Below, piece after piece: positions 12,533 through 28,499 of a stretch of 44,847 bases of DNA. The position numbers and the translations under genes are program-made. Within the stretch, counting starts at the first letter, position 1; every line of letters starts with the position of its first letter. The stretch is from assembly GCF_030068445.1 (NCBI RefSeq), contig NZ_JAQPOK010000122.1:1-44847 (forward strand), read 5' to 3'. Origin of the DNA: Roseofilum halophilum BLCC-M91 (lineage in GTDB: Bacteria; Cyanobacteriota; Cyanobacteriia; Cyanobacteriales; Desertifilaceae). The notes beneath the pieces are model-generated. The model saw only the letters and a list, made by a program, of their open reading frames with translations, did no database searches and was not told where the DNA came from.

Positions 12533-12817
12533 ATGAACACCAAACAACTGCTACGGGTTGCAGATGCCCAGCTTTATCGCGAAACCCAAAAACACCTGAC
12601 GGATATCGAGCGACAGGTGCTAAGGGCCTGCCTAGAGGGAATCTCTTATAAACAAATGAGTCAAGAAATACCAAAAAGTCAGGAGCAACTGAGGAGGGTT
12701 GGCGCTCGTTTGTGGAACAAGTTATCCCCCATATTTGGGGAAGAGATTCATAAACATAACATTCGCGGCGCTCTAGAACGTTACCTGGAAGATCGGGAGG
12801 CTGAGGATAGTTCCTGA
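12533..12817 (+). CDS. Solo helix-turn-helix protein, VMAP N-terminal HTH type
   Basis: A 94-residue, mostly helical, charged protein. The pattern TQKHLTDIERQVLRA, then GISYKQMSQEI, SQEQLRRVGARLWNKLS and FGEEIHKHNIRGALERYL matches the N-terminal HTH domain at the start of many cyanobacterial STAND ATPases and vWA-MoxR-associated proteins. Normally it is fused to a large effector or ATPase; here it is a complete stand-alone ORF with a stop, so it may act as a transcription factor or an adaptor. It is the first plus-strand gene of the accessory island and is flanked on both sides by ACGYTACTTA repeats that it might bind. No strong ribosome site is visible before the ATG. The fold call is by recall of family sequences. 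Confidence 0.75.
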   Translation: MNTKQLLRVADAQLYRETQKHLTDIERQVLRACLEGISYKQMSQEIPKSQEQLRRVGARLWNKLSPIFGEEIHKHNIRGALERYLEDREAEDSS

Positions 12818-13105: not shown

Positions 13106-13744
13106 ATGATGAACCTACCTTTATCCAATTTGTTTCGTACTGGCGCACAACTGTTGAGCGTTGTGTCGCTGACTGCCTTGAGTATCGCCCTGCCCCAACC
13201 CAGTCAGGCCCAAAGCGCCCGATTTTACTGCGGAACGAGCCAGGGTTCGCCAGCTACTCTCGCCAACACTCCACGAGGTGTCGTTCCTGTGATTGTTTGG
13301 CAATCTCCTTATTTTGAAGCTTCCGGTTATTCCCCCCAAAGACGCTGCCAGGAGGTGTCCTCTCGGTTCCAGACATTTTACAGCAAGGGATCTCTAGAGT
13401 ATCTGACGACAGGTATCGTGAATGGTTATCCGGTCATTTGTGTTAGTCAAACTAATGGAGGCAGTTGTGCAGATACGGAGGTCTTATTTACTCTCAAACA
13501 AGGAGACGATGCTAACCGTGTCTTACAACAAATGTTTGATGTTCGCTCTGGTGCTTCGGGGCCGTTGTATCAGAGTACAGGCCGCCGCCCCACTAAACTC
13601 TATATTGATATGGAGAATTATCTGAATACAGCGCCCGTTGAAAGTGGGTCTTCTCCTAGCGTAGCTCCAAGCCAACCCCAGCCAGCTCCCAATCCTGCTC
13701 CAGCCAATAATCCAGGTTCGGGTTCGGGTGGCTCGGTTTGGTAA
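13106..13744 (+). CDS. COP23 domain protein, exported
   Basis: Matches the cyanobacterial COP23 family, named for a circadian-oscillating membrane-associated protein. A Sec signal peptide covers about residues 1-32, ending PSQAQ. The mature domain has the family pattern: ARFYCG, IPVIVW-like VVPVIVWQS, GYSPQRRCQEVSSRFQ, TTGIVNGYPVICVS, VLFTLKQGDDANRVLQQMF, and YIDMENYL. Four Cys probably form disulfides. A Pro/Ala/Ser/Gly-rich tail (about 175-212) ends in SVW. AAGGA lies about ten bases before the ATG. The protease gene that follows overlaps or abuts its stop, so they are translationally coupled. Biochemical function of COP23 is unknown; in this locus it is the first of several exported products. 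Confidence 0.88.
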   Translation: MMNLPLSNLFRTGAQLLSVVSLTALSIALPQPSQAQSARFYCGTSQGSPATLANTPRGVVPVIVWQSPYFEASGYSPQRRCQEVSSRFQTFYSKGSLEYLTTGIVNGYPVICVSQTNGGSCADTEVLFTLKQGDDANRVLQQMFDVRSGASGPLYQSTGRRPTKLYIDMENYLNTAPVESGSSPSVAPSQPQPAPNPAPANNPGSGSGGSVW

Positions 13745-14666
13745 ATCCTTGATGACTAAGCCTGTTGTAGCATTACTGGCTTGTGGGATGTGCGGCTTGG
13801 TATGGCATTACGGGCCGCTAGAACCTGTGTTGGACGATCGCCCCTTAACCACTGTTCCCATCTCATGGCACTACGGGCCCCTACAGCCCCAGTTAGACGA
13901 TCGCCCATCCTGGACAACTGTACCCACTACTCCGGTTTCCCCAGCCAAATCTCCCCAGGAACTGCGCCAAATTGCTAGGGCGATCGCCGTTAAAGTCATC
14001 GCTGGAACCAGTCATGGTTCGGGGATTATTCTCGGCCGAGAAGGAGAAACCTATCAAGTAGTGACCAACCGTCATGTGTTGACGGCCTCGGATACCTACA
14101 AGATTCAAACCTCTGATGGTCAGGTCTATGCAGCCATTCAGGTCACTGCTATTGATTTCCGGGGCAAGGATCTGGCCTTGTTGACATTTAGGAGCGATCG
14201 CCCCTATACCCTTGCTTCTATTGCAGAAGTTTCTTCTGTCGTAAAGAGCGAAGTGTTTGCAGCAGGATTTCCCCTCCAATCTCCCCCTGATGCGGCTGAG
14301 GATGGATTTGTCTTTAACCAAGGAACCCTCCAATGGCTCCTAGAGCAACCCTTAGCCGATGGCTATCAGATGGGTTACGACAACGACATTCGTAAAGGAA
14401 TGAGCGGGGGGCCTCTCTTAAACAACCGAGGTGAAGTCATTGGCATTAATGGAATGCACGCCTATCCCCTCTGGGGAAATCCCTATATCTATGCTGATGG
14501 CAGCCAACCCGATCCTCTCTTGCGGGAAACCCTGATCGCCCTCAGTTGGGCCATTCCCATTGGCCTATTTCAAAGTTTGAGTAGTTTCGAGGTTTTGTCC
14601 CAAGAGTCTGGGGAGGTTCATCCCATGCCCCCAGTTCCTCCATCTCATTCAGAACTCGTGTGGTGA
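13728..14666 (+). CDS. Trypsin-like serine protease, exported or lipoprotein, VW tail
   Basis: A chymotrypsin-fold protease of the S1/HtrA-like type with an intact triad: H116 in TNRHV, D148 in KDLAL, S226 in GMSGGPL. The GTG at 13728 gives a signal of useful length ending LLAC, a possible lipobox; an ATG at 13752 would leave a very short signal. Just after it comes a tandem repeat of about 21 residues, each unit starting WHYGPL and containing LDDRP and TTVP. There is no PDZ domain. The Pro-rich tail ends in ELVW. It overlaps the COP23 stop by 17 bases with the GTG start. It probably cleaves protein targets in the periplasm. Neighbours suggest it is one of several effectors of the island. Confidence 0.88.
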   Translation: MARFGKSLMTKPVVALLACGMCGLVWHYGPLEPVLDDRPLTTVPISWHYGPLQPQLDDRPSWTTVPTTPVSPAKSPQELRQIARAIAVKVIAGTSHGSGIILGREGETYQVVTNRHVLTASDTYKIQTSDGQVYAAIQVTAIDFRGKDLALLTFRSDRPYTLASIAEVSSVVKSEVFAAGFPLQSPPDAAEDGFVFNQGTLQWLLEQPLADGYQMGYDNDIRKGMSGGPLLNNRGEVIGINGMHAYPLWGNPYIYADGSQPDPLLRETLIALSWAIPIGLFQSLSSFEVLSQESGEVHPMPPVPPSHSELVW

Positions 14667-14721
14667 GCAGACCCAAAGAACACTCTGTTTCGTGTCGAAT
14701 CAAATATGAGGTACATCTAAA

Positions 14722-15660
14722 ATGAATAGAAATTATCTATCTGCGGCTTTAGCAGGAACGGCGATCGTCAGCACAATCGTCATGACGCAAACTCAACCCA
14801 CTTTTGCCCTCACTGGAGTCGAAATCAACAACATTGCCCGCGAAGTCACCGTTCTTATTAAAGATCCTGAAGGAGAAGGCCATGGCTCTGGAGTCATTAT
14901 CGCCAAAGAAGGCAACACCTATTACGTTCTTACCGCCAATCATGTCGTCAGTTATGAAACCCAGTACAATCTCGTTACCGGAGATAAGCAAGGTTACGCG
15001 ATCGACTACAGTAAAATCCAACGGTTGAATGGCGTAGACTTGGCTATTGTTCCCTTCACCAGTGACAAAGACTATCGCATTGCCAAATTAGCCAACACCA
15101 ATACCGTTCAACAAGGACAATCCGTTTTCATTTCCGGTTGGCCAGCTACCAGTCAATCCATTCAAGAAGTGACTCGCCAATTTACGAGCGGTATTGTCTC
15201 CAGCCTACTGGAACAACCTCGTAGTGATGGATATGCTTTAGTCTACGATTCAGTCACCCGACGTGGTATGAGTGGCGGCCCAGTTTTTGATTCTGAGGGG
15301 CGCGTTATTGCCATTCATGGTTTAGGAGATGCAGAAACGCGAGATCAAGTTCAATCTGTTTCTCCCAATGCTCCAGGAATCGAATCCGTTGCCGATCTCA
15401 TCGGGTCAGGATTTAACTTAGGCATTCCCATCACTATCTATTTGCAAACCGCTCCTGGGTCAAACATTTTTCTCACCGTACAAGTCGAAAACACCCCCGT
15501 GCAACAAGCCGTGGTTGACTATACACCGCCCGCGCAACCTGACCCACGGGATACCATGAACATTAACCAAGTCTTCTCCAACATTAATGAAGGTTTAAAC
15601 ACCATCAATCGAGGGGTTGACACCTTCCGTAGAGTTTGCGGATTCTTTGGCTGTCGATGA
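14722..15660 (+). CDS. Trypsin-like serine protease, periplasmic
   Basis: A second S1-type protease of 312 residues, clearly related to the preceding one. The signal peptide (about 1-30) ends TFA. The triad is H74 in TANHV, D106 in VDLAI and S184 in GMSGGPV, with SLLEQP-type loops shared with its neighbour. The C-terminal extension (about 245-312) is unlike that of the neighbour and ends FFGCR, with two Cys close to the end; it lacks the VW terminus. GAGG about ten bases upstream supports the ATG at 14722. It probably arose by duplication with the upstream gene. The 260 bases that follow it hold only repeats. Confidence 0.9.
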   Translation: MNRNYLSAALAGTAIVSTIVMTQTQPTFALTGVEINNIAREVTVLIKDPEGEGHGSGVIIAKEGNTYYVLTANHVVSYETQYNLVTGDKQGYAIDYSKIQRLNGVDLAIVPFTSDKDYRIAKLANTNTVQQGQSVFISGWPATSQSIQEVTRQFTSGIVSSLLEQPRSDGYALVYDSVTRRGMSGGPVFDSEGRVIAIHGLGDAETRDQVQSVSPNAPGIESVADLIGSGFNLGIPITIYLQTAPGSNIFLTVQVENTPVQQAVVDYTPPAQPDPRDTMNINQVFSNINEGLNTINRGVDTFRRVCGFFGCR

Positions 15661-15743
15661 TAGCACTTTTGGCGATCGGTGAACTACGTTTTGATCTTCC
15701 TATCCCCTCTTACAGCATTTTGCGCTCCTTCAAGGGAAATTTT

Positions 15744-15813
15744 GATCCCCCCAACCCCCCTTAAAAAAGGGGGCAGTAAAAGTCCCCCTTTTTAAGGGGG
15801 ATTTAGGGGGATC
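15744..15813. repeat. 70-bp near-palindrome of G/C tracts
   Basis: GATCCCCCCAACCCCCCTTAAAAAAG pairs with CTTTTTAAGGGGGATTTAGGGGGATC across a short centre. This is a widespread type of cyanobacterial interspersed palindrome. It lies between the second trypsin-like gene and the metallopeptidase gene and could also stop transcription there, splitting the island into units. Confidence 0.75.
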
Positions 15814-15858
15814 GAGAGGGACTAAATATCAGAACCAAATACTGTAAACCTTCCTTCT

Positions 15859-15889
15859 GTAGGTTGGGTTGAACAACGTGAAACCCAAC
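15859..15889. repeat. GTAGGTTGGGTT dyad repeat, copy 2
   Basis: GTAGGTTGGGTT and AAACCCAAC flank a ten-base loop. It ends 30 bases before the metallopeptidase start, so it may lie in the 5' leader. Confidence 0.75.
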
Positions 15890-15919
15890 TAACGACTGAA
15901 TCCATTCAGAGGCAAAATA

Positions 15920-16888
15920 ATGATGCGTTGGATTAAATTTAGCCTAATTGCAGCCATGAGTATCTGTGCAGTAATTGGAGAATCTTTTCTTCCTCTATCT
16001 TCCGCTACTGCCGAATACGATCTGTTCCGCAACCCCAATGTTTCTCCCTCAGCGCCCTCTCGTCCTCCTGCTCCCAGATCCAATCCTCCAGTTTCCACAG
16101 GGCCCATACGAGGGCGATTCAAAATTGTTCACGTGCAAATCAAAAAGGAATATTTACAGCAACTGAACATTAGGCTGCAAGATTCTGGGGCGCTGAATTA
16201 CATGCAAAATAACTTAAATAACTTAAATCTAAATTTACCGGCTGATGTCCCCGTTATTTTTGGCGAATGTGGAGAAGCCAATGCTTTCTATAGTCCCAGT
16301 AAACGACAAATTATCATGTGTATCGATCTGGTACATGCCTTTGTTGTGCGTTTTCATGAAGATGACCCAGATGCATCGCTTAAGGAACTACTAGATGTGG
16401 CATTTAACGTCACCTCTTTTGTCGTTCTTCATGAAATGGGACACGCTATTATCGATATTTTTGATATTCCCGTTACTGGAAGAGAAGAAGATGCGGTAGA
16501 TGAAATGGCTGCAATTTTACTCTTAGAACAAGGAAATGCTAAGTCAGAACAAACTGTTTTACAAGCCGCCATTTCTTTCCTTCTTGCCGCAGAAAAAAAT
16601 GAGAACATCAGAAATCTACCCTATTGGGGCGAACATTCTCTAGATCAACAGCGATTTTTCAGCTTACTCTGTTTAGTCTATGGTAGCAACCCGGACAAAT
16701 ATTCTCATTTAGTAGAACGTAACATTTTGCCAGAGAGCAGAGCCAAGAGATGTCCAAGCGAATATACTCAAAAACTAAGCAGTTGGAACCGCCTGCTGGC
16801 TCCTCATATTAACAATAATCCAGTGGTTGCAGGGAATCAGCCTCAACCTCAAACTTCTTATCAACCCGATCCCGGTTTGTTATGGTAA
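15920..16888 (+). CDS. DUF4344-like exported metallopeptidase, LW tail
   Basis: A zinc metallopeptidase resembling the DUF4344 family. The HExxH motif is H171-E-M-G-H175, followed by EEDAVDEMAA (about 189-197) that can give the third ligand. The signal peptide (about 1-35, starting MMRWIKF) ends near SSATA. The mature protein begins with YDLFRNPN, a motif seen three more times in the next gene product, followed by a Pro/Ser-rich stretch. A Pro/Gln tail ends in GLLW. AGAGG about eight bases before the first ATG is the ribosome site; a second ATG follows directly. It is separated from neighbours by repeats but has the same strand and the same tail type as the island's other exported proteins. 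Substrate unknown. Confidence 0.85.
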   Translation: MMRWIKFSLIAAMSICAVIGESFLPLSSATAEYDLFRNPNVSPSAPSRPPAPRSNPPVSTGPIRGRFKIVHVQIKKEYLQQLNIRLQDSGALNYMQNNLNNLNLNLPADVPVIFGECGEANAFYSPSKRQIIMCIDLVHAFVVRFHEDDPDASLKELLDVAFNVTSFVVLHEMGHAIIDIFDIPVTGREEDAVDEMAAILLLEQGNAKSEQTVLQAAISFLLAAEKNENIRNLPYWGEHSLDQQRFFSLLCLVYGSNPDKYSHLVERNILPESRAKRCPSEYTQKLSSWNRLLAPHINNNPVVAGNQPQPQTSYQPDPGLLW

Positions 16889-16903
16889 TTAACCCCAAAA
16901 AAC

Positions 16904-16980
16904 GTAGGTTGGGTTGAACGCAATGAAACCCAACAATCCACACCAAAAATGTTGGGTTACGCTGTTGCTAATCCAACCTA
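16904..16980. repeat. Double GTAGGTTGGGTT repeat, copies 3 and 4
   Basis: Two dyads side by side: GTAGGTTGGGTT with AAACCCAAC (16904-16934), then GTTGGGTT with AATCCAACCTA (16951-16980). The whole block starts with TAGGTT and ends with AACCTA, so it is itself a long palindrome. It lies between the metallopeptidase and VWD genes. Confidence 0.7.
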
Positions 16981-17024
16981 AACCAGAGAGTAGCAAGAAA
17001 AAGCCATCAATTACGAGGTGAGTT

Positions 17025-19322
17025 ATGCGTCTAATCAAATATTTGTGGTTTGCCTTAATCAGTTTCGTTTTAGTCCTTGGTAGCGCCTGGATAAAGCGAA
17101 GTATTGCTGTTGCTTTATGTGGCATTCTAGGGTTTAACTCTAATGCCTGTTTTTGGGCAGAACAAAACCGAGCAGTTGCCATTCAACCCCCAGCGTATAA
17201 TCTTGCTCAAGGCATTGATATTTTTCGCAATGATGGTGAAGCACCACCCCCACAATCTGGCGGTACTGATATTTTCCGCAACGATGGAGGAAGTTCTCCA
17301 CCTCCCCCCGCACCCTCTGCTCCTGGAGGTATTGATATTTTCAGGAATCCGGATGTGAATCAACCGAATTCACCCATTCCTCAACCGGAAATACCTAATA
17401 CTCCTCAATCTCAAGTTCAAGAAGAGAGTTTAGCTGGTATCTGGCTATATGCCATTTACGATCAGCCATTAGCTAATGAACCTGTTCTTATCACATCTAT
17501 CAGAATTAATGAAGCTGTAGATAGAGAAACTGAAGAATTAGAATATTCGATACAAATATGTGATGCTGAATGCGATCGAATTGTTCAAAATTATGATTTT
17601 TATCCTAAAACCAGAACTCCTCACGAACAATCAGCTTTTGCTCGTTACCAAGATTTAACACTGCAAACTGTTGATAGTTTAGATGGACAGCAAATGTGGG
17701 GAGAACTCAATGATACAAGTACTGGGGAATATTTATATTTTACAATGTTAAGAATTGTTCCTGTTTCTTCACAATTTGGTAAATCTTTAAAGGTTAATCC
17801 TATCGGAGGTTCAGGAAATTTTCCTATTCCAGGAGGTAATCCTGGATCAAATAATATTAACAATAAGCCAACCACTCAAAATCCTAACTTAACTAATTTC
17901 ACGAAAAATACCAAAAATGTAGATCGATTTGATAGATTTGTGAGTACTACTGATGTTGCATCTGGCAGTCAAAAAGTTCAAGCCATAAATAGAGTTGAAG
18001 CAGTTGATAATAATTCCGTTAAAAATTGGTTGCGATCAAAAGTAAGAAAAATTTCGGATTTTGGTAAATCTTTTTTTTGCAAGAGCAACTCCAAATGTAT
18101 TAGAGGTAAAATACCGTCAATTTCATCTCGTTCAGTTGGGTCTGCTTTACGGGGAAGTAGAGTTTTAAGAGTCGCCTTGAAAGGAGCTAGATTAGGATTA
18201 AGAGTAGCTGGGAAATTAGCGATTCCTCTACTGATCCTAGATTTAGCATTGACTGCCTATGAATTCTGTCTTGCGAACCCCGATACTTGCAAGCGGATAG
18301 GAGAGAATATTGCACAGGGGTTGGAACGCTTTGGAAATCTACTCAAAGGTTCCAGTTATGGAGATCCTCATTTGGTTACCTTTGATGGGTTCCGATATAG
18401 CTTCCAAACGGTGGGAGAATTTATCTTAGCTAAATCTGTGGGGGGAGACTTTGAGGTGCAAACCCGTCAGGGAGCGATACCGGGACGCGATGTGTCTCTG
18501 AATACGGGAGCAGCAATGAAGATAGGGCGCGATCGCATCGCATTTTATAGTAAATTCTTCCCAGACTCGGATACCAGTACCCCCCTGCGCGTCAACGGTA
18601 GGCCCACCAGAATCTCCGGTAACTCCCTCTCCTTACCCGGTGGAGGCGCAATTTATAAACAGGGAGGTCGAAATTATCTCGTCAAATGGCCCTCTGGAGA
18701 AGAAGTCGCCATCCGCTTCATTCAAATGTCCGGTTCTGAATATATGAACGTCACTCCCCATGTTCTCAGTTCGCCTCCCGGTCAATTTACCGGACTCTTA
18801 GGCAACTTAAACGGCAATCCTGGTGACGACTTACGAACCCGAAGCGGTAATGTGCTTCCCTCCAAATCCAGTTACGGACAAGTGCGAGATGTGGTCACTC
18901 GAATCGTTCCCATTCCCGGTGCTATTCCTGTTCGTCGCATTGAAAATGCAGTCTTCAATCAACTCTATAAAAACTTTGGCAATAGCTGGCGCATTAGTCA
19001 AAGCGAATCCCTCTTTGATTATGCCCCCGGTCAAACCACGGAAACCTTCACCGATAAGAGCTTCCCCAGACGCTATAAAACCATGGATATGCTCTCGGCC
19101 CAACAAATCCGAGAAGCCGAACAAACCTGTTTAGAAGCAGGAGTTGAACCGGACTTATTGGAAGGCTGTATCTTCGATGTTGGCTTTACGGGCGACCGAA
19201 GCTTTGCTCAAGCTGCCGCCAGCGCCTTAAATATCATCGACCAACTCAATGATATTGTCCCTGGTGGCGTGCCCATTCCCCGACCGAGATTACCGATTCC
19301 GATTCCCGGTTTACCGTTTTAA
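17025..19322 (+). CDS. VWD (von Willebrand type D) domain protein, membrane anchored
   Basis: A 765-residue envelope protein. Residues 1-47 form a hydrophobic N-terminal module, MR-IK then LCGILG-x-N-x-N-x-C-x-W, nearly shared with the papain-like product of the next gene. Residues 60-110 hold three DIFRN units in Pro/Gly-rich linker. After an unassigned region and a second hydrophobic stretch (about 390-415), a VWD domain covers about 443-620, with YGDPHLVTFDG at its start and TGLLGNLNGNPGDD near its end. The C terminus is helical, then Pro/Ile-rich, ending GLPF. VWD domains serve in extracellular adhesion or protein binding. GAGGTGAG before the ATG is a strong ribosome site. Bases before 18350 are clearly more AT-rich than those after, suggesting domain shuffling. 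Confidence 0.85.
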   Translation: MRLIKYLWFALISFVLVLGSAWIKRSIAVALCGILGFNSNACFWAEQNRAVAIQPPAYNLAQGIDIFRNDGEAPPPQSGGTDIFRNDGGSSPPPPAPSAPGGIDIFRNPDVNQPNSPIPQPEIPNTPQSQVQEESLAGIWLYAIYDQPLANEPVLITSIRINEAVDRETEELEYSIQICDAECDRIVQNYDFYPKTRTPHEQSAFARYQDLTLQTVDSLDGQQMWGELNDTSTGEYLYFTMLRIVPVSSQFGKSLKVNPIGGSGNFPIPGGNPGSNNINNKPTTQNPNLTNFTKNTKNVDRFDRFVSTTDVASGSQKVQAINRVEAVDNNSVKNWLRSKVRKISDFGKSFFCKSNSKCIRGKIPSISSRSVGSALRGSRVLRVALKGARLGLRVAGKLAIPLLILDLALTAYEFCLANPDTCKRIGENIAQGLERFGNLLKGSSYGDPHLVTFDGFRYSFQTVGEFILAKSVGGDFEVQTRQGAIPGRDVSLNTGAAMKIGRDRIAFYSKFFPDSDTSTPLRVNGRPTRISGNSLSLPGGGAIYKQGGRNYLVKWPSGEEVAIRFIQMSGSEYMNVTPHVLSSPPGQFTGLLGNLNGNPGDDLRTRSGNVLPSKSSYGQVRDVVTRIVPIPGAIPVRRIENAVFNQLYKNFGNSWRISQSESLFDYAPGQTTETFTDKSFPRRYKTMDMLSAQQIREAEQTCLEAGVEPDLLEGCIFDVGFTGDRSFAQAAASALNIIDQLNDIVPGGVPIPRPRLPIPIPGLPF

Positions 19323-19330
19323 TCGCGCTC

Positions 19331-19366
19331 AACCCAACTTAACTCCGCTCTGGGTTGAGTTGGGTT
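19331..19366. repeat. Degenerate TTGGGTT dyad repeat
   Basis: AACCCAACT and AGTTGGGTT form an inverted repeat with an 18-base spacer, just past the VWD stop. It resembles the GTAGGTTGGGTT family but lacks its ends. Confidence 0.5.
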
Positions 19367-19430
19367 TGACTGCGTTCAAACTAACTTACAAACCTCTCAA
19401 CTTTATTGAATGCGAATCGCGAGGTAAATT

Positions 19431-21158
19431 ATGCGTTGGATTAAATTTATAATCATTACCGTCTTCAGTTCTATCCTACTCGTTATCACTTCAGCTCTAT
19501 TTAAGAAGTTTGTAGCAATTTATCTGTGCGGAATTCTGGGAATAAACACCAATCTCTGTCTCTGGCTAGATAGTCAGAAAGTTATAGCACTTGAACCAAT
19601 ACCTCAATTGTCTTTAACAGCATATAAACAATCTCAAAAATCAATTTGGATTCTAGAATTTCCTGGTTTTGAATGGTCAAATAGGACATGCAAATCCAGT
19701 AACATGGTGCAAATCGAGATGGTTTTGAATGGTTCTTCTTTTAGTGGACAAACCCAACGAACAGAAAATAATAGACCAAGAACTGTTGCTGTAGTTAATG
19801 GTGTAATGAGCGGTACTAATGTACAGTTAACAATTACATCTCCTTTAGATGGAGAGATTGTAGTCTTGAATGGTTCCTTAAATCAACAAGGTCAATTTTC
19901 TGGAACTGCAACTTACAGCAATGGTGCTGGGCGTTGTAGAGGACGTTCTTCACAATTCAAGTTAGTCCAAAGATCGGGCACTCCTATTCAACCACAACCG
20001 CAAAATATCGATAAACAAAATTTCCGAAAATCTGATGAACAAGCAGCAGCAGAATTAGCAGCACTGCGACAACAGGGACAGCGTGAAGGTTGGACATTTA
20101 ATCTGGGTGATAGTTTAGCCTTTAGAATTCTTCTCGAAGTGCTGGCTGGTACTCGAATTCCCGATAATTTTAGTCCCATAATCATCGACATTGCCAGAAT
20201 TTTAGCCCTATTAATTCAACAAGCCTCGCAAAATAATCCCACACCTGCGCCACCCGCTCCTACACCTCCTGCTCCTCAACCGAGACCTCAACCCAATCCC
20301 AATCAAAATCAATTACCCAGCCGTTTTGATGCTCGTGAATGGAATGTTGTTCCTAGGGTTAGACACCAAGGAGGTTGCGGAAGTTGTTGGGCATTTGCAG
20401 GCATCAGTTCTCACGAAATCGCCTACAGTTCCCGCTACCAATACCCCAGTAATAGCTTGAATCTGAGCGAACAACAACTGCTCTCTTGTAATCCTCAAGG
20501 CTATAGTTGTGAGGGTGGATTTGTCACTGAAGATGACTCCCATTATCGCTATCAATCTGGGGTAGTCACTGAACAAGTTTATCCTTATGAAGAAGAAAAA
20601 ACTCCCTGTCGAAGATTAAGTCCACCAAGGTCTGGAAATATTTACAATATTAGAGCCTTTGACTTTATCCTTAGCCTCAGAGACAATCCAGGAAGTCAAC
20701 CGAATATCACCAAAATTAAACAAGGGATTTATACTTCCGGCAGTGTTTGGGTAGGAATGGCAACCAATGAAGCCTTTCAAGCGTATCAAGGTGGAGTCTT
20801 TAATGCTTGCTCAACTTCCAAACCCGATCATGCTGTTAACCTCATTGGTTGGGATGATGCAGGAGGTTACTGGATTGCTCGTAATTCTTGGGGCGATGAT
20901 TGGGGAGAAAACGGCTATTTCCGCATCAAGTATGGCTGTAGTCAAATTGGAGCGAGTGCCGCTATTCCTAGACTACCCGAACTCCAATCTTGTAACAACG
21001 GCAATTGTCGGGGTAGAGCAGCAGTTCCTCCCCCTTGGTTAAAAGGTTCTTCAGCTCCAGTTGCTCCACCTCCCGTTCAACCTGCTCCCGTTTCACCCCC
21101 TCCAGCGCAGCAACCCGCTCCTCCCTCTAACGAACCATCTCCAGGATGGTTATGGTAA
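19431..21158 (+). CDS. Papain-like (C1) cysteine protease, membrane anchored, LW tail
   Basis: A 575-residue protein with a catalytic C1 papain domain at about 303-520: C319 in GGCGSCWAFA, H467 in DHAVNLIGWD, N485 in RNSWGDDWGENGYF, and the oxyanion Gln just before the Cys loop. Residues 1-49 repeat the membrane module of the VWD protein (MRWIK ... LCGILG-x-N-x-N-x-C-x-W). A beta-rich domain of unknown type spans about 70-185, then a helical stretch and a Pro-rich linker lead into the protease. Several extra Cys pairs suggest disulfides in the periplasm. The tail (about 535-575) is Pro/Ala-rich and ends GWLW. GAGG before the ATG is a good ribosome site. No inhibitory propeptide is recognisable, unless the beta-rich part serves as one. 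Confidence 0.9.
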   Translation: MRWIKFIIITVFSSILLVITSALFKKFVAIYLCGILGINTNLCLWLDSQKVIALEPIPQLSLTAYKQSQKSIWILEFPGFEWSNRTCKSSNMVQIEMVLNGSSFSGQTQRTENNRPRTVAVVNGVMSGTNVQLTITSPLDGEIVVLNGSLNQQGQFSGTATYSNGAGRCRGRSSQFKLVQRSGTPIQPQPQNIDKQNFRKSDEQAAAELAALRQQGQREGWTFNLGDSLAFRILLEVLAGTRIPDNFSPIIIDIARILALLIQQASQNNPTPAPPAPTPPAPQPRPQPNPNQNQLPSRFDAREWNVVPRVRHQGGCGSCWAFAGISSHEIAYSSRYQYPSNSLNLSEQQLLSCNPQGYSCEGGFVTEDDSHYRYQSGVVTEQVYPYEEEKTPCRRLSPPRSGNIYNIRAFDFILSLRDNPGSQPNITKIKQGIYTSGSVWVGMATNEAFQAYQGGVFNACSTSKPDHAVNLIGWDDAGGYWIARNSWGDDWGENGYFRIKYGCSQIGASAAIPRLPELQSCNNGNCRGRAAVPPPWLKGSSAPVAPPPVQPAPVSPPPAQQPAPPSNEPSPGWLW

Positions 21159-21256
21159 GTCCAGCCGGAAATCTAGAGCTGTTCTCACTCAGTACAGCGT
21201 GAATTCATATCCAATTTGTCCATCCCTTTTCAATTGAGTATTTAGGAGTCCATCAC

Positions 21257-23605
21257 ATGGTTACCTCATCATCCCCTTTAGATAATTTACATGACACCAT
21301 TAAAGGATATTTGCCTGATGCTACTGAGGATCAGATCAAACGTTTTGCCCATCAATTTCAGCGACTGCAAGAGCTTGAGAAATATTTTTCACAATATCCA
21401 GAGGATCTAGAAAGATGGAAAGATAAATCCGGTTTCCCCATCAACGAATTCGCTCGTGCAATCAAAGCCCTCGATTATCAGCGACCCTATCGAATTGCGA
21501 TGATTGGTCTCACTGGTGCAGGCAAAAGTACGCTATTGAATGCTTTGCTGGGAAGATCTTTGGTGTTGATGAAAGATATTGGCAAACCGGCAACTGGAGC
21601 TGCTCTGGAAATTTTTCTAGATGTATCCCAAAGAGGCATTGAGAAAGCCGATGTCAGTTATCGAAAGGAGTCAAATATCCGGGAACTCATTAAGGATTTT
21701 GTTGAACGTTATCAGCTTGATGCTTCCGGACTCACTGGTAATTTAGATGCAGGTTTTGCCACGGCTCTTCGTCAATTACAACCTCAGAATTCATTGACGG
21801 AACGGGAACGCCGAGAATTTGAAGAATTACGAAATACGCTGGCTGATATCGTTATTCAGTCCGCCAATAATGGCAATCATAGTCTTCGTACAGAGTTTTT
21901 TCTATCTAACTCAACCGATGTGCAAGAACTGATGAATTTAATTGATGAGAATAGCCAGCTCAATAGCGAGAATAATCCTCAACGCCGCATTGGTTTAGTA
22001 AAATCTGTCACTTATCATATTAAGCCTCACAGCAACCTCAATGGATTGGCCACACTGCACCTTCCTGGAAATGTCTGCTTGGTCGATCTGCCTGGACTTG
22101 ATGGTACTCCTCTCCATGACATTATCATCAGTGAGGGGATTAAAGATGCTGATGCCGTTGTCTTTATTTTGCGTCCCCCACGCATCCTCGGTCGAGGAGA
22201 TGCTTATCTGCTGAATCGGGTACGCAAATATATCAGTCTTGAGGGTAGTAGTGAATCGGGCGATCGCATCTTCTTGGTCTTGAACGCTAGAGATAGCATT
22301 ATGGTCGATGACAGACGGACACCAGATAACCTGCCAAGGGATATGCAGGATTTGATGGATTTGCTTGTGCCCAATTATGCTAGATATTTTAGCGATCGCG
22401 GTGGCGAGTATCCTTACTTTTTGACTTCTGCTTGGGCAGCATATGCTGCTCAGAAGCAACTGAATGGAGAACCTATCAAGGATATTCAAACCTATGAGTC
22501 AGTTAAACTCAAGCTGGGGGTTCAGGGAAGAGGCGATCGCGAAGTCCTAGAAGCCAGCCAAGTTCCCAAGTTGGCAGAAGAATTGACTAAATTTGCCCGC
22601 GAGCATCGCATTGAGGGACAAATTCGCGATGGTAAATCTGCTGTTGATAGTATCATTGAATGGCTGATTGACAGTTTCAAAAAAGACAGTCAAATTCGGG
22701 ATCGTAGAGGCACATCATACTTAACGGAAAAACGAGAAGAAATCATCAAAAAAAGGCAAAAAGAGCAGGAGAGATTAGTTAAGCAAATCCGAGAAAGTCA
22801 AGAGAGTCGATTGGAGAATTTACGCAGTCAACTGGCAAAAATAGCTCAGTCGATCTGCGATCGCTGCGATCGGGCCATTCAAGAGAAGATGCCTGAACTG
22901 TGGAAAACCAGTTTTCTCGATGTAGAAGACCGTCTTGGTCGTCAAAACATTGCCAAACTCGGTTACGAATGTATACTGACTGAAACTCAAATTAACCTTT
23001 GGTATGAACTAACTCATGAAGTTCCAGATATGGCCAAGAAGTTGGTTCGAGCGTACACCGATCAGATCGCAACTTCCCAGATAGCTGAAAAAATTGCTCG
23101 CGGTTGCTACAACTATGTAGACGTTTCTCTACTCCACTCAACAATCCAAGAAAAAATAGACGAAAACATGCACCGCAACCTACCTGAAATAGCCCGTCGT
23201 ATTGCCATAACTCAAATGACCGATCCCGCGCTTTATTTTACAGCTATGGATGCTAACGGTCACCCTGAGAAAAAGCAGCTTTTCGATCGTCTTGCTCAAA
23301 TCCCACGTCAGCCAGAAGTAAGTAGTCAAAATTTCACTGCATTTATTACAGAAATCCGAAAAATATATGAAAAATTTGTGTCTCCATATTGCATTGTAGG
23401 CCTTTTGAATGTCTATCGATATGAAATGATTGTGATCGAAGATTCGTTACTAGACTACATTAAACAGATGTTTCACAAAATCCGTTATTCAAACGATCCG
23501 ATTTTGAACGCAGCAATCAACGAAAGTCTCAGCGACGATCCTAACTGGAAACGTCTTGAGTTAATCCAACAAAAACTGGCTATCCTCGAAACGATCAAAT
23601 CCTAA
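21257..23605 (+). CDS. Dynamin-like large GTPase
   Basis: A 782-residue cytosolic GTPase. The G domain spans about 75-400: P-loop GLTGAGKST at 84-92, G2 Thr probably in the KPATGA segment, G3 DLPGLDG near 277, and NARD at 343 as G4. A long insert between G2 and G3 and a helical C-terminal half (about 470-782, heptad-rich near 490-540) resemble bacterial dynamin-like proteins, which self-assemble and may remodel membranes. No transmembrane segment is evident. AGGAG eight bases before the ATG is the ribosome site. It starts the cytosolic part of the island and is followed by a second GTPase and a GAP1-like protein, so it probably belongs to one NTP-dependent system. Confidence 0.85.
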   Translation: MVTSSSPLDNLHDTIKGYLPDATEDQIKRFAHQFQRLQELEKYFSQYPEDLERWKDKSGFPINEFARAIKALDYQRPYRIAMIGLTGAGKSTLLNALLGRSLVLMKDIGKPATGAALEIFLDVSQRGIEKADVSYRKESNIRELIKDFVERYQLDASGLTGNLDAGFATALRQLQPQNSLTERERREFEELRNTLADIVIQSANNGNHSLRTEFFLSNSTDVQELMNLIDENSQLNSENNPQRRIGLVKSVTYHIKPHSNLNGLATLHLPGNVCLVDLPGLDGTPLHDIIISEGIKDADAVVFILRPPRILGRGDAYLLNRVRKYISLEGSSESGDRIFLVLNARDSIMVDDRRTPDNLPRDMQDLMDLLVPNYARYFSDRGGEYPYFLTSAWAAYAAQKQLNGEPIKDIQTYESVKLKLGVQGRGDREVLEASQVPKLAEELTKFAREHRIEGQIRDGKSAVDSIIEWLIDSFKKDSQIRDRRGTSYLTEKREEIIKKRQKEQERLVKQIRESQESRLENLRSQLAKIAQSICDRCDRAIQEKMPELWKTSFLDVEDRLGRQNIAKLGYECILTETQINLWYELTHEVPDMAKKLVRAYTDQIATSQIAEKIARGCYNYVDVSLLHSTIQEKIDENMHRNLPEIARRIAITQMTDPALYFTAMDANGHPEKKQLFDRLAQIPRQPEVSSQNFTAFITEIRKIYEKFVSPYCIVGLLNVYRYEMIVIEDSLLDYIKQMFHKIRYSNDPILNAAINESLSDDPNWKRLELIQQKLAILETIKS

Positions 23606-23668
23606 TCAACTCAGCCCTTCCCAAAAGGGCACAGTTAATTTTTGACAATAATTCACTCAGGATATTTT

Positions 23669-24745
23669 ATGAATACTAACAACCCATTCTCGCAATTACG
23701 AACCAGTTTAAAACAATGGTTAGATCGACAAACTTCACCAACTGATATACGCATAGGGCTTTGGGGAACTGTTGGCTCTGGAAAGACAACTTATTTGGCA
23801 ATGCTTTACGATGCCCTAGAGGATTCAGAAGAATTGAGAGTTGAGGCAGGGGACGATCGCGCTGATGAGTTTATAAATGAACACATCAGTACAATTGATG
23901 GTGGAAACTTCCCACCTCCCACCGAAATAGCAAAAGGGAAGCAGCTAGATATTTTTACTTATATCCTAAGACCCGAAGGAGGAACAAGGTCTATCGAACT
24001 AAACTTTATTGACGCTCCTGGCAAGTTTTACGAAGACTTCCGTGGCAATACAGATCAAAAAGTCCAGATAGTTGAAGGCCAAGAAAATCAGGAGACATTA
24101 GGAGATATCGTAGACTATTTACGCAGTTGTGATGGCATTATTTTCTTACTCGATCCAATCCGCAGTAAAGAAGACGGTGAGTCCTACAAGACTTTGGTAT
24201 TAAGATTATTTCGAGAGTTTCAAAGGCGATCTAGACAACAGGGCACAGACACCAAATTACAACAGTATATGGTATTCTGTGTAACAAAGTGCGCCAAAAA
24301 AGAGATATGGACTCAAGGAAAGAAATCAGCAGATTTAGCCAAAGAAGTCATGGGTGGGAAATTATTTAGAAGACTAAGAACTAACTATTGTCTTCCAGGT
24401 CGCTATGAATTCTTTTCTGTAGCATCTATCGGTCTTTGTCAAGATAAAGATGGCCATTGGAAAGAAGCTGTAATTTATCCAGACATCCCAGATAGCTCAA
24501 GCACATCAAAACCTCAAGCTCCTCAACCCTATCAACAGGGTTACGATCCTGATGCTCCATTTGGAAGACCTAACCCTCCTGATGACGACTGGGCAGATTT
24601 AAATAAGACATCAAGGAATGCAGAACCACCTCAGATACCTGTCCCGACTATTAATACAGAGGTGGAACATGAACCCATTAATGTGATCGAACCCATTCAG
24701 TGGTTAATTCAAAGCATTCAAAAAAAACCACCATCTCGGCTATAA
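23669..24745 (+). CDS. Small GTPase, double-GTPase (DO-GTPase) -like
   Basis: A 358-residue P-loop NTPase. GTVGSGKTT at about 33-41 followed by YLAMLYDAL is the opening typical of the GTPases paired with GAP1 proteins (double-GTPase families). NFIDAPGKFYED near 115 is the G3 region and FCVTKCAKKE near 205 is likely G4. A flexible Pro-rich tail (about 283-330) contains QPYQQGYDPDAP, a segment repeated in the GAP1-like neighbour. I start at the ATG at 23669 because AGGA lies six bases before it; the TTG at 23642 has no ribosome site. The gap to the dynamin-like gene is 63 bases. It is probably a regulatory switch with the two neighbouring proteins. Family assignment rests on motif style and context. 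Confidence 0.72.
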   Translation: MNTNNPFSQLRTSLKQWLDRQTSPTDIRIGLWGTVGSGKTTYLAMLYDALEDSEELRVEAGDDRADEFINEHISTIDGGNFPPPTEIAKGKQLDIFTYILRPEGGTRSIELNFIDAPGKFYEDFRGNTDQKVQIVEGQENQETLGDIVDYLRSCDGIIFLLDPIRSKEDGESYKTLVLRLFREFQRRSRQQGTDTKLQQYMVFCVTKCAKKEIWTQGKKSADLAKEVMGGKLFRRLRTNYCLPGRYEFFSVASIGLCQDKDGHWKEAVIYPDIPDSSSTSKPQAPQPYQQGYDPDAPFGRPNPPDDDWADLNKTSRNAEPPQIPVPTINTEVEHEPINVIEPIQWLIQSIQKKPPSRL

Positions 24746-24822
24746 GCTAAATACAAGCGATCGCTGATGGCTGGAGCATTTAAAAACAGATCGCATCCAC
24801 ATTACAAAAAACCTGTTGACCT

Positions 24823-27800
24823 ATGTACTCACAGTTTATTTACGGAAAATTTGTTGGCAGCAGAAGTTCTGAGTATCAGCTTGTTGCTCGCAGTCCTGAT
24901 TTGACTAATGAAGCTGACTTAAACACGATGGCCGAGAGAACCCATCGCTTTTGGGGATCGACACCACCAGAGAGAGAGGTGAAAGCAGTTGGAATCTTTT
25001 TGCACAATCAGAATCTGGTATTAGTCAAAGCTGAAACTGCTGTAGACGATCGCGGTCAGTTTGCTGTCAATGGAGTTAGAGGATTTAATCAGCACCGCTA
25101 TGTTTTTATCCCGATCGCATCCATATCAGCGCTACAAGGCCGGACATTTAGACTACTTGTTTGGATATTGAAACAACCCATCCCTCTACTGGTAGAGTTT
25201 AATGCTCATTTAGAACCTTTATCGATTTCACTCTTAGAAGAGCCAATATCAGCCGAAATTCAGGAGCAAGAAATTGGAAAAATTCAGACCTGTTTGCAAT
25301 ATACTGATCAGCAAAAAACTCTACTTTTATCTGCATTAGCGGCAATCATCAATGGTAAACAGCTACTGCTCACCAATGAGCAAACAGATATTGCTCCTCA
25401 GAACTGGATGGATAGCCTATTGCTCCTACTCCCTGCTAGTATTCGCCCTCAAATCTCCGTTGCTGTTGGCACTCTTAAAGAGCAGGAATGTAGTTGGGCA
25501 CAACTGGTTATTAAAACGAATCAACATTCTTCTCGATCGCTACCTGAAAATATGATTTGGCTTAACCGTGCTACTCAAACCTTTCAGGGACAGTTTGATG
25601 AGGATATATTTGAGAATCGCTATGTTGATTATATACGCGATCATATAGCTAAAGCCCCAGATACTCTTAAGCAACTGATCCAAAAATTAGATGAAATAGT
25701 TGAGGATGATATTACACTAGAGTCCCTAGCTGAACCCAAAATCATTGTCCGCCTGATTCCCGCATTACCTGAAGAACAACAAGATATATTTTTGTCAAAA
25801 TATATTTCTGGATTGACTATCGAAAAGTGGGAAGAATTTATCCCACCGATCATCAAAGAAGATTATCAACAGGGGCTTGTATTTTCATGGATCGAGTTAG
25901 GCAAAAAGGCAATGTTAGAAGCTCAAGCAATCCCACTAATGTTACAGATTTGGAGTCGCCTTGAAAATATTCAATTAGTCCGGCTGTTAGATGAACTCAA
26001 TAATAATTTAACCTTGGCAGAGATATTACTGAGGGAAAAGCGATTATTAGATCGTCCCATGCGCCAAGGTGAAAATACTATAATTAATTACACATTAAAA
26101 TCTCAACCCTATCAACCATCTACACAGACTATGTATTCAGAGGGTTACGATCCTGATGCTCTATCAAGGATATCTAAACCTCCCCCTAGTTCTAGTTCGT
26201 CATCAACTGTAATTGTAAGAAAATTAATCGAACTTTGTCAAAAAGTGGTAGCGCATAAAGCAAAATCGAGTTGGCAAAAGGCATGGGGATTTGCTACTAA
26301 TCTGGCAACTCATAAATTTTTTCCAGATGAGACAGAGGCTTTTTCTCTACTCGATACTGCCCTGTTAGGTGAAATTTCTCTTAAAGATTTATACAACTGT
26401 TTCACCTTAAAGCTGGCAATTTTGTTGCCGAATATTGAGGTGGAACAGTTCAAACACAGTAATTTGCACCGACAGCTTAACTCTAAAAATCTAGCGGTAG
26501 CAGACTTGCTTGAGGCCCTACTTGCAGAGTGCAATGCAGGTTTAGCAAATCTGCCAGAGATAGCCAACTTAATAGAGATGGATAATGCCGCTAAGGATAA
26601 TTGGTACAAAATATTTCTGAAAAAATGGTCGTTTTCCTGGGAACAGGCAAAGTTGCTGTTGGTTGAGGTAATTAAAGACAACCAAAAGTATCGTAATATG
26701 TTTAGTCGCGATGAGCTGCGTCAAACCTATACTTGGTTTGAACAACAGCAGCCTGAACTCAAGGCGATTTTCGATAGTCTCCAGCAGGATTATAGCTGTG
26801 ACAATTGGGTAAACTTGGCTCATGCTATTTATCAAACCCAAAAAGAGCAGACTGAATTTGTAGACAGCTTAGTGGGAAATATTTTTCCTGTTGCGGTGAT
26901 GCAAAAATGGCTCCCGCTAATCGCTGATAATGATAATCTTAGGAAAAATTTTATTGCTACATCCTCTGCATGGCAAAGTCTTACGGTTGAAGGATTCAAT
27001 CAACTTGTTCATCGTTCCCAACAGTATGTTCCTACGTTGACTCGCTGTTTGCGAGATGCCTTACGTCTTTCCTGGATTAAGGGTGACTTATTGCATTACC
27101 TTTGCCAAACCTGGATACGACAAAAGAGAATTGATGAGGACTTGAGGAATGTAATCACTAGCCCTAGCGTAACGAATACCTTTACAACTCAGGATTGGTT
27201 GATTCTACAACGTCTGAGTTGGGAACCAGGAATTGAACTCAATCTAGAACTACCGCTAGGAGTGAAAACTGCTTTGACACCTGAGCAGAAAATTACTTTG
27301 CAGATGAATGCTAAGACAATAGTAAGTCGCTACAATCATCCAGAACAAACACGTGGGTTGCTTCATGACTGTGCGGGATGGGGTTTAGAATTAGATGAAC
27401 AGAAAGAGATTCTCAAAGCGGTTCAACCTTCAGCGTGCAATGCTAACTTAATTAGCCCTTACCTATATCGTGAAGCTAAAGTCATTAATCCGGCTGAAGA
27501 GCAACAGTTAATAGGATTATTACTTCAACTACAATTGAACGATAGTGAAAGACCTGATGTGGAAAAATTTTCTGTCGATGTTTTTAACCAGTATATATTG
27601 CCAAATTGCGCTCTGATTTTGCTCAAGTGGTGGAGAGATAAAGCCGTCGAAAAACAGCTTTACAAAGTCGCATTTTTTACGGCAACTCAAACATATGTGC
27701 AGAACCTCTCTATAACCGATTTTTTTAATTACCTAAAAGTATTGAAAACCCATTCGCTAGTTGAAGAAGCTGGCTGGATGTTCAAAGCAACGTTTAGTTG

Positions 27801-27858
27801 GATACCGGACTTGTTAATTCAACCCATTATTGCTTTTATAGTCGATTCCACATTTTAA
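24823..27858 (+). CDS. GAP1-like GTPase-associated protein
   Basis: A 1011-residue soluble protein without recognisable catalytic motifs. The start, YSQFIYGKF followed by YQLVARSPDLT and GIFLHNQNLVLVKAE, resembles the N-terminal domain of GTPase-associated protein 1 (GAP1), the large partner of the double-GTPase conflict systems; the rest is mainly helical, as in GAP1 middle and C-terminal regions. Residues about 426-462 form a low-complexity insert with QPYQ, GYDPDA and a Ser run. The 20 bases encoding part of GYDPDA are identical to those in the upstream GTPase gene. It is 77 bases after that gene and 14 before the zinc-ribbon gene, an operon-like spacing. Its A+T content is higher than that of the flanking backbone. 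Function probably scaffolding or GTPase control; assignment is by recall. Confidence 0.62.
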   Translation: MYSQFIYGKFVGSRSSEYQLVARSPDLTNEADLNTMAERTHRFWGSTPPEREVKAVGIFLHNQNLVLVKAETAVDDRGQFAVNGVRGFNQHRYVFIPIASISALQGRTFRLLVWILKQPIPLLVEFNAHLEPLSISLLEEPISAEIQEQEIGKIQTCLQYTDQQKTLLLSALAAIINGKQLLLTNEQTDIAPQNWMDSLLLLLPASIRPQISVAVGTLKEQECSWAQLVIKTNQHSSRSLPENMIWLNRATQTFQGQFDEDIFENRYVDYIRDHIAKAPDTLKQLIQKLDEIVEDDITLESLAEPKIIVRLIPALPEEQQDIFLSKYISGLTIEKWEEFIPPIIKEDYQQGLVFSWIELGKKAMLEAQAIPLMLQIWSRLENIQLVRLLDELNNNLTLAEILLREKRLLDRPMRQGENTIINYTLKSQPYQPSTQTMYSEGYDPDALSRISKPPPSSSSSSTVIVRKLIELCQKVVAHKAKSSWQKAWGFATNLATHKFFPDETEAFSLLDTALLGEISLKDLYNCFTLKLAILLPNIEVEQFKHSNLHRQLNSKNLAVADLLEALLAECNAGLANLPEIANLIEMDNAAKDNWYKIFLKKWSFSWEQAKLLLVEVIKDNQKYRNMFSRDELRQTYTWFEQQQPELKAIFDSLQQDYSCDNWVNLAHAIYQTQKEQTEFVDSLVGNIFPVAVMQKWLPLIADNDNLRKNFIATSSAWQSLTVEGFNQLVHRSQQYVPTLTRCLRDALRLSWIKGDLLHYLCQTWIRQKRIDEDLRNVITSPSVTNTFTTQDWLILQRLSWEPGIELNLELPLGVKTALTPEQKITLQMNAKTIVSRYNHPEQTRGLLHDCAGWGLELDEQKEILKAVQPSACNANLISPYLYREAKVINPAEEQQLIGLLLQLQLNDSERPDVEKFSVDVFNQYILPNCALILLKWWRDKAVEKQLYKVAFFTATQTYVQNLSITDFFNYLKVLKTHSLVEEAGWMFKATFSWIPDLLIQPIIAFIVDSTF

Positions 27859-27872
27859 GAAGACTCAATCAA

Positions 27873-28499
27873 ATGACTGTACAACCTCCTAACTCTCCTA
27901 AGCCTGACTCCCCGACACTTAAGTGGAAATGCACTGGTGTTACCAACAATCCACATTCAGAAGTTATAAACCATCAATTTAAGTGCAAATACTGTTCACG
28001 AACATACGATGATGTTCGTGAAGAAAATCAGATTGCTATTGGGCAAAGAATACTAATATCTTCTGCTGGTGTAGCTGCTATAGTCGCTGTATTTCTAGTT
28101 ATTGGGGCTATTTGGTACGCAGCGAGGAAAGTTTCTCAAGCACATAATCTAGTTAATCAAATTCCTGAATTACAAAAATCCCTGGATGAGGCTCAAGTTA
28201 CATGGGAGTCAATTGAGGTTGAACTGGAAAAAACGAAGAACGATTTAAGACAGGCTACTGCCAATTGGAATGAAGCTGAAGCTAAATCAGAGGCATTAGA
28301 GAAATTACTGGCTGATACCCAAAAAGATTTGAGCGCATTTACAGCGCGATCGCAGCGATTAGAAACAAGAGTGACCAATACTCAAGCCGAGTTGAATTCA
28401 ATGAAACAACAAATGGAAGATGTCACGTCTGATATTACACGAATTGATGGAGAGTTGCCCAAAATAAAAGAAAAATTGCCACCCGAACCTCTATGGTAA
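27873..28499 (+). CDS. Zinc-ribbon / single TM / coiled-coil protein, LW terminus
   Basis: A 208-residue protein in three parts. Residues about 17-48 contain Cys and His spaced as a small zinc ribbon (C in WKCTG, His residues, then CKYC). One membrane helix runs about 62-86 (ILISSAGVAAIVAVFLVIGAIW). Residues 95-200 are a continuous coiled coil with repeated ETEL-type and AQ/EL heptads. It ends LPPEPLW. The ATG at 27873, 14 bases past the GAP1-like stop, is chosen over an upstream in-frame start that would overlap that gene. Charges on the two sides of the helix do not settle topology; if the ribbon is cytosolic, the coiled coil and LW end lie in the periplasm with the exported proteases. It probably couples the cytosolic GTPase/GAP1 module to the envelope. 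Confidence 0.75.
   Translation: MTVQPPNSPKPDSPTLKWKCTGVTNNPHSEVINHQFKCKYCSRTYDDVREENQIAIGQRILISSAGVAAIVAVFLVIGAIWYAARKVSQAHNLVNQIPELQKSLDEAQVTWESIEVELEKTKNDLRQATANWNEAEAKSEALEKLLADTQKDLSAFTARSQRLETRVTNTQAELNSMKQQMEDVTSDITRIDGELPKIKEKLPPEPLW

Follow-up and report, generated by a model that had tools for sequence, protein, structure and literature searches.

A tryptophan-ended C-terminal tag on non-homologous proteins of cyanobacterial COP23 islands

Why should five proteins of different families, encoded close together on one cyanobacterial contig, all end in tryptophan? The question is raised by a stretch of 44,847 nucleotides (hereafter the window) from Roseofilum halophilum BLCC-M91, contig NZ_JAQPOK010000122.1. 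Within it, ten plus-strand genes at 13106-28499 form an island that runs from a COP23 gene through a gene for a zinc-ribbon protein with a transmembrane segment (Table 1). An original prediction, made from the letters of this stretch, suggested that the Trp end is a shared terminal tag on exported proteins, serving in sorting, anchoring or degradation or as a ligand for one common receptor. The five ends are real in the translated products: GGSVW in COP23, SELVW in a trypsin-like protease (trypsin A), PGLLW in the DUF4344 protein, PGWLW in the papain-like protease and PEPLW in the zinc-ribbon protein. As had been stated, none of the other 27 translated products of the window ends in Trp, the second trypsin of the island (trypsin B) being untagged, and the VWD protein ends in another aromatic residue. 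A Pro-rich tail was said usually to precede the end; the zinc-ribbon protein is Pro-rich in its last residues only, with the rest of its C-terminal half scoring as coiled coil. The assumed Trp frequency of about 1.3% agrees with the 1.39% of residues measured in a 20-stretch sample of the genome, and the probability of five or more Trp ends in ten proteins is indeed 1.0e-7 at 1.34% Trp. It falls to 1.3e-8 when the calculation uses the proportion of genes measured to end in Trp in this genome, 7/797.

Beyond the window, the end recurs on COP23 proteins. PF14218 matches are present in 56 of the 59 genomes searched, the own genome included. A set of 104 non-redundant cyanobacterial COP23 proteins was assembled from loci no shorter than 3,500 bases (numbered below with the prefix L, and genomes with G). 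The window's own COP23 was left out, and proteins identical over their last 60 or 70 residues were reduced to one before most counts. One source of this set is 56 named cyanobacterial loci, for which the query of the scan was built from tagged COP23; both of its patterns lie in the domain, and it favours tagged relatives. Gene ends come from a home-made gene caller, and export signals were assigned by visual inspection and a simple hydropathy rule. In 74 of the COP23 proteins the domain is followed by 16 residues or more, and here the last residue is Trp in 45 and Phe in 11; the 30 with fewer residues include no Trp end and five Phe ends. The 16-residue split is rough because the domain ends were set by a home-made profile and some are misplaced, and the Fisher p of 1e-9 for Trp ignores kinship among related sequences. 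The tails that follow the domain vary in length and sequence, with Pro, Ser, Asn and Gly often abundant. On a tree of 92 COP23 domains, the Trp state changes at least nine times.

The genes surrounding tagged COP23 carry the same end. Among same-strand genes no more than four places from a tagged COP23, 31 of 202 end in Trp and 28 in Phe, and Trp ends 24 of the 112 with a hydrophobic N-terminus. The corresponding Trp counts are 4/150 near untagged COP23 and 15/599 further off, the latter set including some island members that lie beyond the four-gene limit. In a background of 60 stretches of the own genome (1.0 Mb, 797 proteins), seven proteins end in Trp, with 1/187 among those that have a hydrophobic N-terminus. 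Clustering of the hydrophobic-N-terminus neighbours at 50% identity leaves 12 Trp-ended clusters of 60 near tagged COP23, against 1/39 near untagged COP23 (p 0.014), 6/139 far from COP23 (p 0.0009) and 1/181 in the own-genome sample (Fisher p 2.4e-7). By the own-genome sample and these clustered counts, chance is rejected as the source of the Trp ends, and the enrichment near COP23 genes that had been anticipated is borne out for tagged COP23. A general signal of exported proteins is not supported in the sampled part of the own genome, where proteins with a hydrophobic N-terminus and a Pro-rich tail end in Trp in 0/22 cases and in Phe in 2/22. The tag-bearing families comprise Deg-like trypsins (trypsin-TPR proteins among them), DUF4344, CAP, a papain and small exported proteins with no Pfam match; the tagged island proteins are mostly protein-cutting enzymes, unrelated to one another.

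Neighbours sent to Pfam were chosen mostly for a Trp or Phe end, a biased choice, so the DUF4344, CAP and trypsin families were searched in every locus read regardless of the C-terminal end. DUF4344 proteins end in Trp in all five tagged islands that contain them (the window, L046, L048, L053 and L129) and in none of the 11 cases elsewhere, where the last residue is I, K (three), L (three), P, D, S or F; the F belongs to L012 (SAPTF), and the D-ended protein of L011 (GGIRWGD) adjoins an untagged COP23. CAP proteins near tagged COP23 end in Trp in four of five cases (L060, two in L129, one in L275), whereas those elsewhere end in Trp in 0/31 and in Phe in 3/31. Trypsins within five genes of a Trp- or Phe-ended COP23 comprise 21 Trp-ended and nine Phe-ended members of 67, compared with three and one of 31 near other COP23. 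The papain-like protease has a relative in L275 (60% identity across residues 58-573) with the end SPQPLW. Five further papain-like proteins had ends that could be read: four are not Trp-ended and one (L284) is Trp-ended without a Pro-rich tail. Island membership counts for more than protein family in having the Trp end. Relatives lacking the Trp, which the original prediction had named as evidence against a tag, are the rule for CAP and DUF4344 outside COP23 islands, while members of tagged islands mostly keep it, an informative split.

Whole islands repeat the arrangement. The cleanest separate case is L275 (genome G291), in which six of seven genes from COP23 on are Trp-ended: COP23 GGNAW, trypsin A PELLW, papain QPLW, two small exported proteins GMLW and EMLW, and CAP ERLW, with trypsin B ending IFGR. 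L053 has four Trp ends in a row, on COP23, two trypsins and DUF4344, and in L129 five of the eight genes that begin with COP23 are Trp-ended (COP23, a trypsin, two CAP and DUF4344), while a relative of the M48-TPR protein of L076 has a Phe end. The relative G001 retains the Trp ends of COP23, trypsin A, DUF4344 and the zinc-ribbon protein as well as the LPF end of the VWD protein, an end type also found in L046 and L121. A second set lies on contig C111 of the window genome, with the ends GNF, SFW and PWF. That such tails have no common function, and come from shared descent, from copying by recombination or from a low-complexity codon bias favouring TGG before the stop, is very unlikely. The COP23 tags do partly follow clades, with as few as nine changes over the 92 rows of the tree, yet the families are non-homologous, their tails differ, Phe replaces Trp at a cost of two base changes, and none of 47 Pro-rich tails elsewhere in the sampled own genome ends in Trp.

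The tag does not extend to the GTPase genes that lie between the papain-like protease and the zinc-ribbon protein. Relatives of the dynamin-like, DO-GTPase2 and 1011-residue proteins cluster in L276-L279 (with a weak dynamin-like match in L279, 25% identity, E 1e-4), and no COP23 or trypsin gene stands beside them in the 19-20 kb read. These relatives occur together without COP23 or trypsin, so the window and G001 seem to combine two units, and it is the COP23/protease islands that the tag marks rather than the GTPase module. An excess near GAP1 genes, also suggested in the original prediction, is not supported, nor is a link between tag and GTPase genes; the zinc-ribbon relatives in L276 and L277, two in each, end QSKF and LERQ. 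Only in the window and in G001, where the relative is 68% identical and ends DPLW, is the zinc-ribbon protein Trp-ended, which may reflect a co-opted tag or chance. The 1011-residue protein owes the name GAP1 to its position after the DO-GTPase gene; PF19993 matches the latter, and no GAP1 model in Pfam matches the former. A DO-GTPase2 gene with a GAP1-like gene after it may correspond to the arrangement of GTPase-centric conflict systems (PMC7159879), from which the present case differs in that GTPase genes and tag occur apart. The main text of that paper contains no occurrence of COP23, DUF4344 or "C-terminal tail".

The anatomy of the end was drawn from 88 Trp-ended island proteins, namely 46 COP23 and 42 neighbours up to eight genes away, a few of which are probably unrelated (e.g. 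GSPW). Position -2 is L in 37, V in 13, A in 12 and I in 12 (74/88), position -4 is G in 44 and E in 10 (54/88), and P, S and G predominate from -5 to -8. Overall, the last eight residues consist mostly of P, S, G, E and N before the closing x-[LVIA]-W. The consensus is a Pro/Ser/Gly-rich leash followed by [G/E]-x-[L/V/I/A]-W-COOH, with Phe sometimes in place of Trp, and conservation is limited to about the last four residues. The stop codons (TAA 65, TAG 12, TGA 11) and the codons at -2 differ, no base downstream is fixed, and the tail varies in sequence and length while the end stays. A DNA or RNA signal at the stop is rejected by the use of three stop codons and the lack of a fixed downstream base; this variability, together with Phe for Trp, indicates that the constraint acts on the peptide. 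Tryptophan prefers membrane interfaces, and the hydrophobic residue at -2 would suit direct anchoring, in which the terminal Trp would sit in the lipid interface without any receptor. Such anchoring has little chance of being the explanation: a lone Trp that carries a free carboxylate anchors only weakly, and the terminal position and frequent Gly or Glu at -4 suggest a pocket.

An outer-membrane machine might instead read the aromatic end as a sorting or secretion signal, for example as a mimic of the β-barrel C-terminal signal read by the β-barrel assembly machinery (BAM), and route the proteins to the outer membrane or surface. β-barrel outer-membrane proteins do have an aromatic last residue, and in nine tagged islands the second or third gene downstream encodes a protein whose last strand is barrel-like (GVGYSHFFSF type). 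This is unlikely, however, since the tail is Pro-rich and lacks the alternating hydrophobic pattern of a barrel strand, and the tag, unlike general sorting signals, is concentrated in islands rather than in the exported proteome at large (0/22). Nor do other features of an outer-membrane β-signal appear: the tails are of low complexity, no strand is predicted in that of trypsin A, and the tagged proteins with Pfam matches belong to enzyme families or to COP23 and CAP.

A leashed free carboxylate and an aromatic last residue, kept while the sequence upstream drifts, have the look of a peptide ligand, and docking to a PDZ-like pocket is favoured accordingly. In the trypsin A model, the tail (residues 280-304) has a predicted local distance difference test score (pLDDT) below 50, and is probably free. 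As in PDZ ligands, the 88 ends combine a free C-terminus, a nonpolar or aromatic last residue and hydrophobic neighbours. As for a periplasmic location, the observation is of hydrophobic N-termini by the simple hydropathy rule. In the proposed mechanism, the proteins would be exported, the ligand borne on its flexible leash would dock into one common envelope pocket that reads the carboxylate and the aromatic side chain, and docking would gather COP23 and the island hydrolases at one place or in one complex. We give this explanation slightly less than an even chance. The tag, its being a feature of the protein, its concentration in islands and its presence on non-homologous proteins are observations, from which we infer a single receptor, the class of that receptor and the purpose of the tag. 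The likeliest pocket would be the PDZ domain of a housekeeping Deg/HtrA-type protein, and the next candidate a TPR-bearing island protease; TPR-bearing trypsins lie near many COP23 genes, tagged or untagged.

The PDZ-like pocket is suggested by analogy with MucE and AlgW. In the accessible part of PMC8545111, the MucE C-terminus binds the PDZ domain of the HtrA-type protease AlgW, which is activated by WVF or by a decapeptide ending WVF. Cyanobacterial Deg proteases have one PDZ each, and Deg PDZ domains possess a carboxylate-binding loop, according to sections of PMC4877387. The window genome has eight PDZ_2 matches, and such matches are present in all 12 island-bearing genomes considered. 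Trypsin A is itself Deg/HtrA-like: its closest solved structures are the Do, DegQ, HhoA and DegP proteases, and its trypsin-type domain has a His-Asp-Ser triad, taken to be H108, D140 and S218, which are invariant in 15 sequences. No PDZ follows this domain in the Pfam scan, only 16 residues, which does not exclude trypsin A from a family that carries 0-4 PDZ domains. Its tail stands where most Deg proteins have their PDZ, and this is suggestive of island proteases that carry an apparent PDZ ligand instead of a PDZ domain. Of 105 COP23 proteins, 87 have a Deg-like trypsin fused to them or encoded no more than four genes away, as do 53 of the 58 tagged ones.

Nonpolar C-termini are classical ligands of PDZ proteases, and the end could likewise hand its bearers to a tail-specific or Deg protease, as short-lived hydrolases or for an activating trim. 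Deg PDZ domains present C-termini to the active site, as described in the part of PMC4877387 at hand. A degradation or processing tag is nevertheless quite improbable, the protein most often tagged being COP23, which matches no hydrolase family and no solved structure. For COP23, the best solved structure in the fold search had E 0.06, outside the limit of 0.001, and the sequence search gave no match (best E 0.93).

Several results weigh against docking to a common pocket. The trypsin ends near tagged COP23 are mixed, with Trp or Phe in 30/67, and the fifth CAP near a tagged COP23 (L275, 3753-4721, upstream of COP23) ends GSPF without a Pro-rich tail. In the COP23 model, which has a good core with 90 residues at pLDDT of at least 90, the tail (181-212) has block means of 49-69 against more than 90 in much of the core, middling rather than very low values that decide little. 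A tree test of joint change between the COP23 and neighbour tags had no power, with one supported independent pair. The peptides in the AlgW and DegS work, so far as the consulted portion of PMC8545111 goes, end in Phe, not Trp. No PDZ_2 match falls on an island contig in any of the 12 genomes (draft contigs, one PDZ model), which gives no genetic link to a receptor; a PDZ receptor adjoining the island is rejected, and a PDZ-type receptor would probably be a housekeeping protein. The original prediction is supported in part: the shared terminal tag finds support far beyond the window, and its role may be in sorting, anchoring, degradation or the binding of one receptor.

Among known systems, PEP-CTERM, LPXTG and the type IX C-terminal domain are C-terminal sorting tags, and likewise place a C-terminal element on unrelated exported proteins. 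The 88 ends have no hydrophobic helix with basic tail and no sortase motif, and no type IX C-terminal domain appears in the Pfam scans of window and neighbour proteins. In PTS1 (SKL-COOH) and EEVD-COOH, the latter read by TPR proteins, a few terminal residues and the carboxylate form the entire signal, as here; both are cytosolic systems, and the TPR-bearing proteases of many islands are no more than possible readers. MucE with AlgW is the best-documented case in the periplasm that was found. There, and in outer-membrane protein C-termini with DegS, in the available text of PMC8545111, an aromatic free-carboxylate end of an envelope protein is a ligand read in the periplasm, and the sign of stress is a small protein or outer-membrane proteins that are mislocalised. 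The island tag differs in its several non-homologous families, its terminal Trp and its Pro-rich leash, and its receptor is a proposed one.

A bolder possibility, which we regard as doubtful, is an undescribed address code that consists of hydrophobic-Trp-COOH at the end of a Pro-rich leash. Read by a dedicated envelope receptor, the code would assemble a cyanobacterial multi-enzyme protease/COP23 machine, which proteins would join in evolution by gaining the short end. No description of a Trp-COOH tag was found in the literature covered in part on C-terminal tryptophan, secretion and sorting signals and cyanobacterial exoproteomes, a body from which subscription journals are mostly absent, and COP23 has no occurrence in the main text of the exoproteome papers PMC4390845 and PMC8092324. 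If the docking explanation is right, about four residues would define membership of an envelope system that takes in uncharacterised families such as COP23, DUF4344 and small exported proteins. The end would then provide a sequence rule by which other members could be recognised and a peptide with which to capture the receptor, and would open a way to study COP23. The COP23 transcript has the most dramatic light-dark change, more than 5-fold, in UCYN-A, a nitrogen fixer, as given in an excerpt of PMC6315102.

Table 1 Features of the island in the window.
Feature	Position	Strand	Remarks
COP23 protein	13106..13744	+	PF14218 E 1.2e-46; N-terminal export signal; Pro/Gly/Ser-rich tail; end SGGSVW
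Trypsin A, Deg/HtrA-like protease domain without PDZ	13728 or 13752..14666	+	PF13365; Pro-rich tail, end SELVW
Trypsin B, no Trp tag	14722..15660	+	PF13365; end CGFFGCR
DUF4344 putative metallopeptidase	15920..16888	+	PF14247 E 4.4e-71; end DPGLLW
VWD-domain exported protein	17025..19322	+	PF00094; end GLPF (aromatic variant)
Papain-like C1 protease	19431..21158	+	PF00112 E 1e-47; end SPGWLW
GTPase genes: dynamin-like, DO-GTPase2, 1011-residue GAP1-like	21257..27858	+	PF00350, PF19993; no Trp tag; judged a separate unit
Zinc-ribbon/transmembrane/coiled-coil protein	27798 or 27873..28499	+	end PEPLW; weakest tag member

Directly upstream of COP23 and on the same strand, 12533-12817 encodes a small stand-alone protein, helix-turn-helix-like by eye and with no Pfam match, a possible regulator of the island. 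The VWD protein (17025-17192) and the papain-like protease (19431-19601) have a common N-terminal membrane/Cys module, 41% identical over the first 57 residues, and thus a front end in common besides the same kind of back end; similar stretches occur in G001, G003, G004 and G005. In many homologues of trypsin A (13752-14666), a short hydrophobic stretch at the N-terminus is followed by a conserved Cys (LVAC, LLAC, LSAC and variants). This may be a lipoprotein signal, but the residue preceding the Cys varies. Relatives of trypsin B end in hydrophobic or aromatic residues (LLRF, ILRF, ILPF, IFR, IFGR) after an apparent helix, where the window copy has CGFFGCR.

Some Trp-ended proteins do not fit the pattern, including those of L056 and L066 ending GSPW, which we take to be CHAT-like, the papain-like protein of L284 (VYAW, no Pro-rich tail) and unrelated proteins of the far set. 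A disulfide-closed hydrophobic version of the end may exist in L032, L074, L168, L170, L171 and L147, where the ends of COP23 tails include CPPILCD, CSPLLCD and CPPILCP and those of trypsins include GGC-x-S-[LM]-LL, then C near the end. The protein with the barrel-like last strand is conserved after tagged COP23 in L122, L125, L126, L128, L139, L141, L142, L148 and L159, and the L126 copy has no Pfam match. In L127, L131-L134 and L136, Ser/Thr kinase-like genes (Pfam on the L131 one) lie upstream of COP23 and have Pro-rich tails ending PLF, and the adjacent COP23 copies end NPLF or NQLF.

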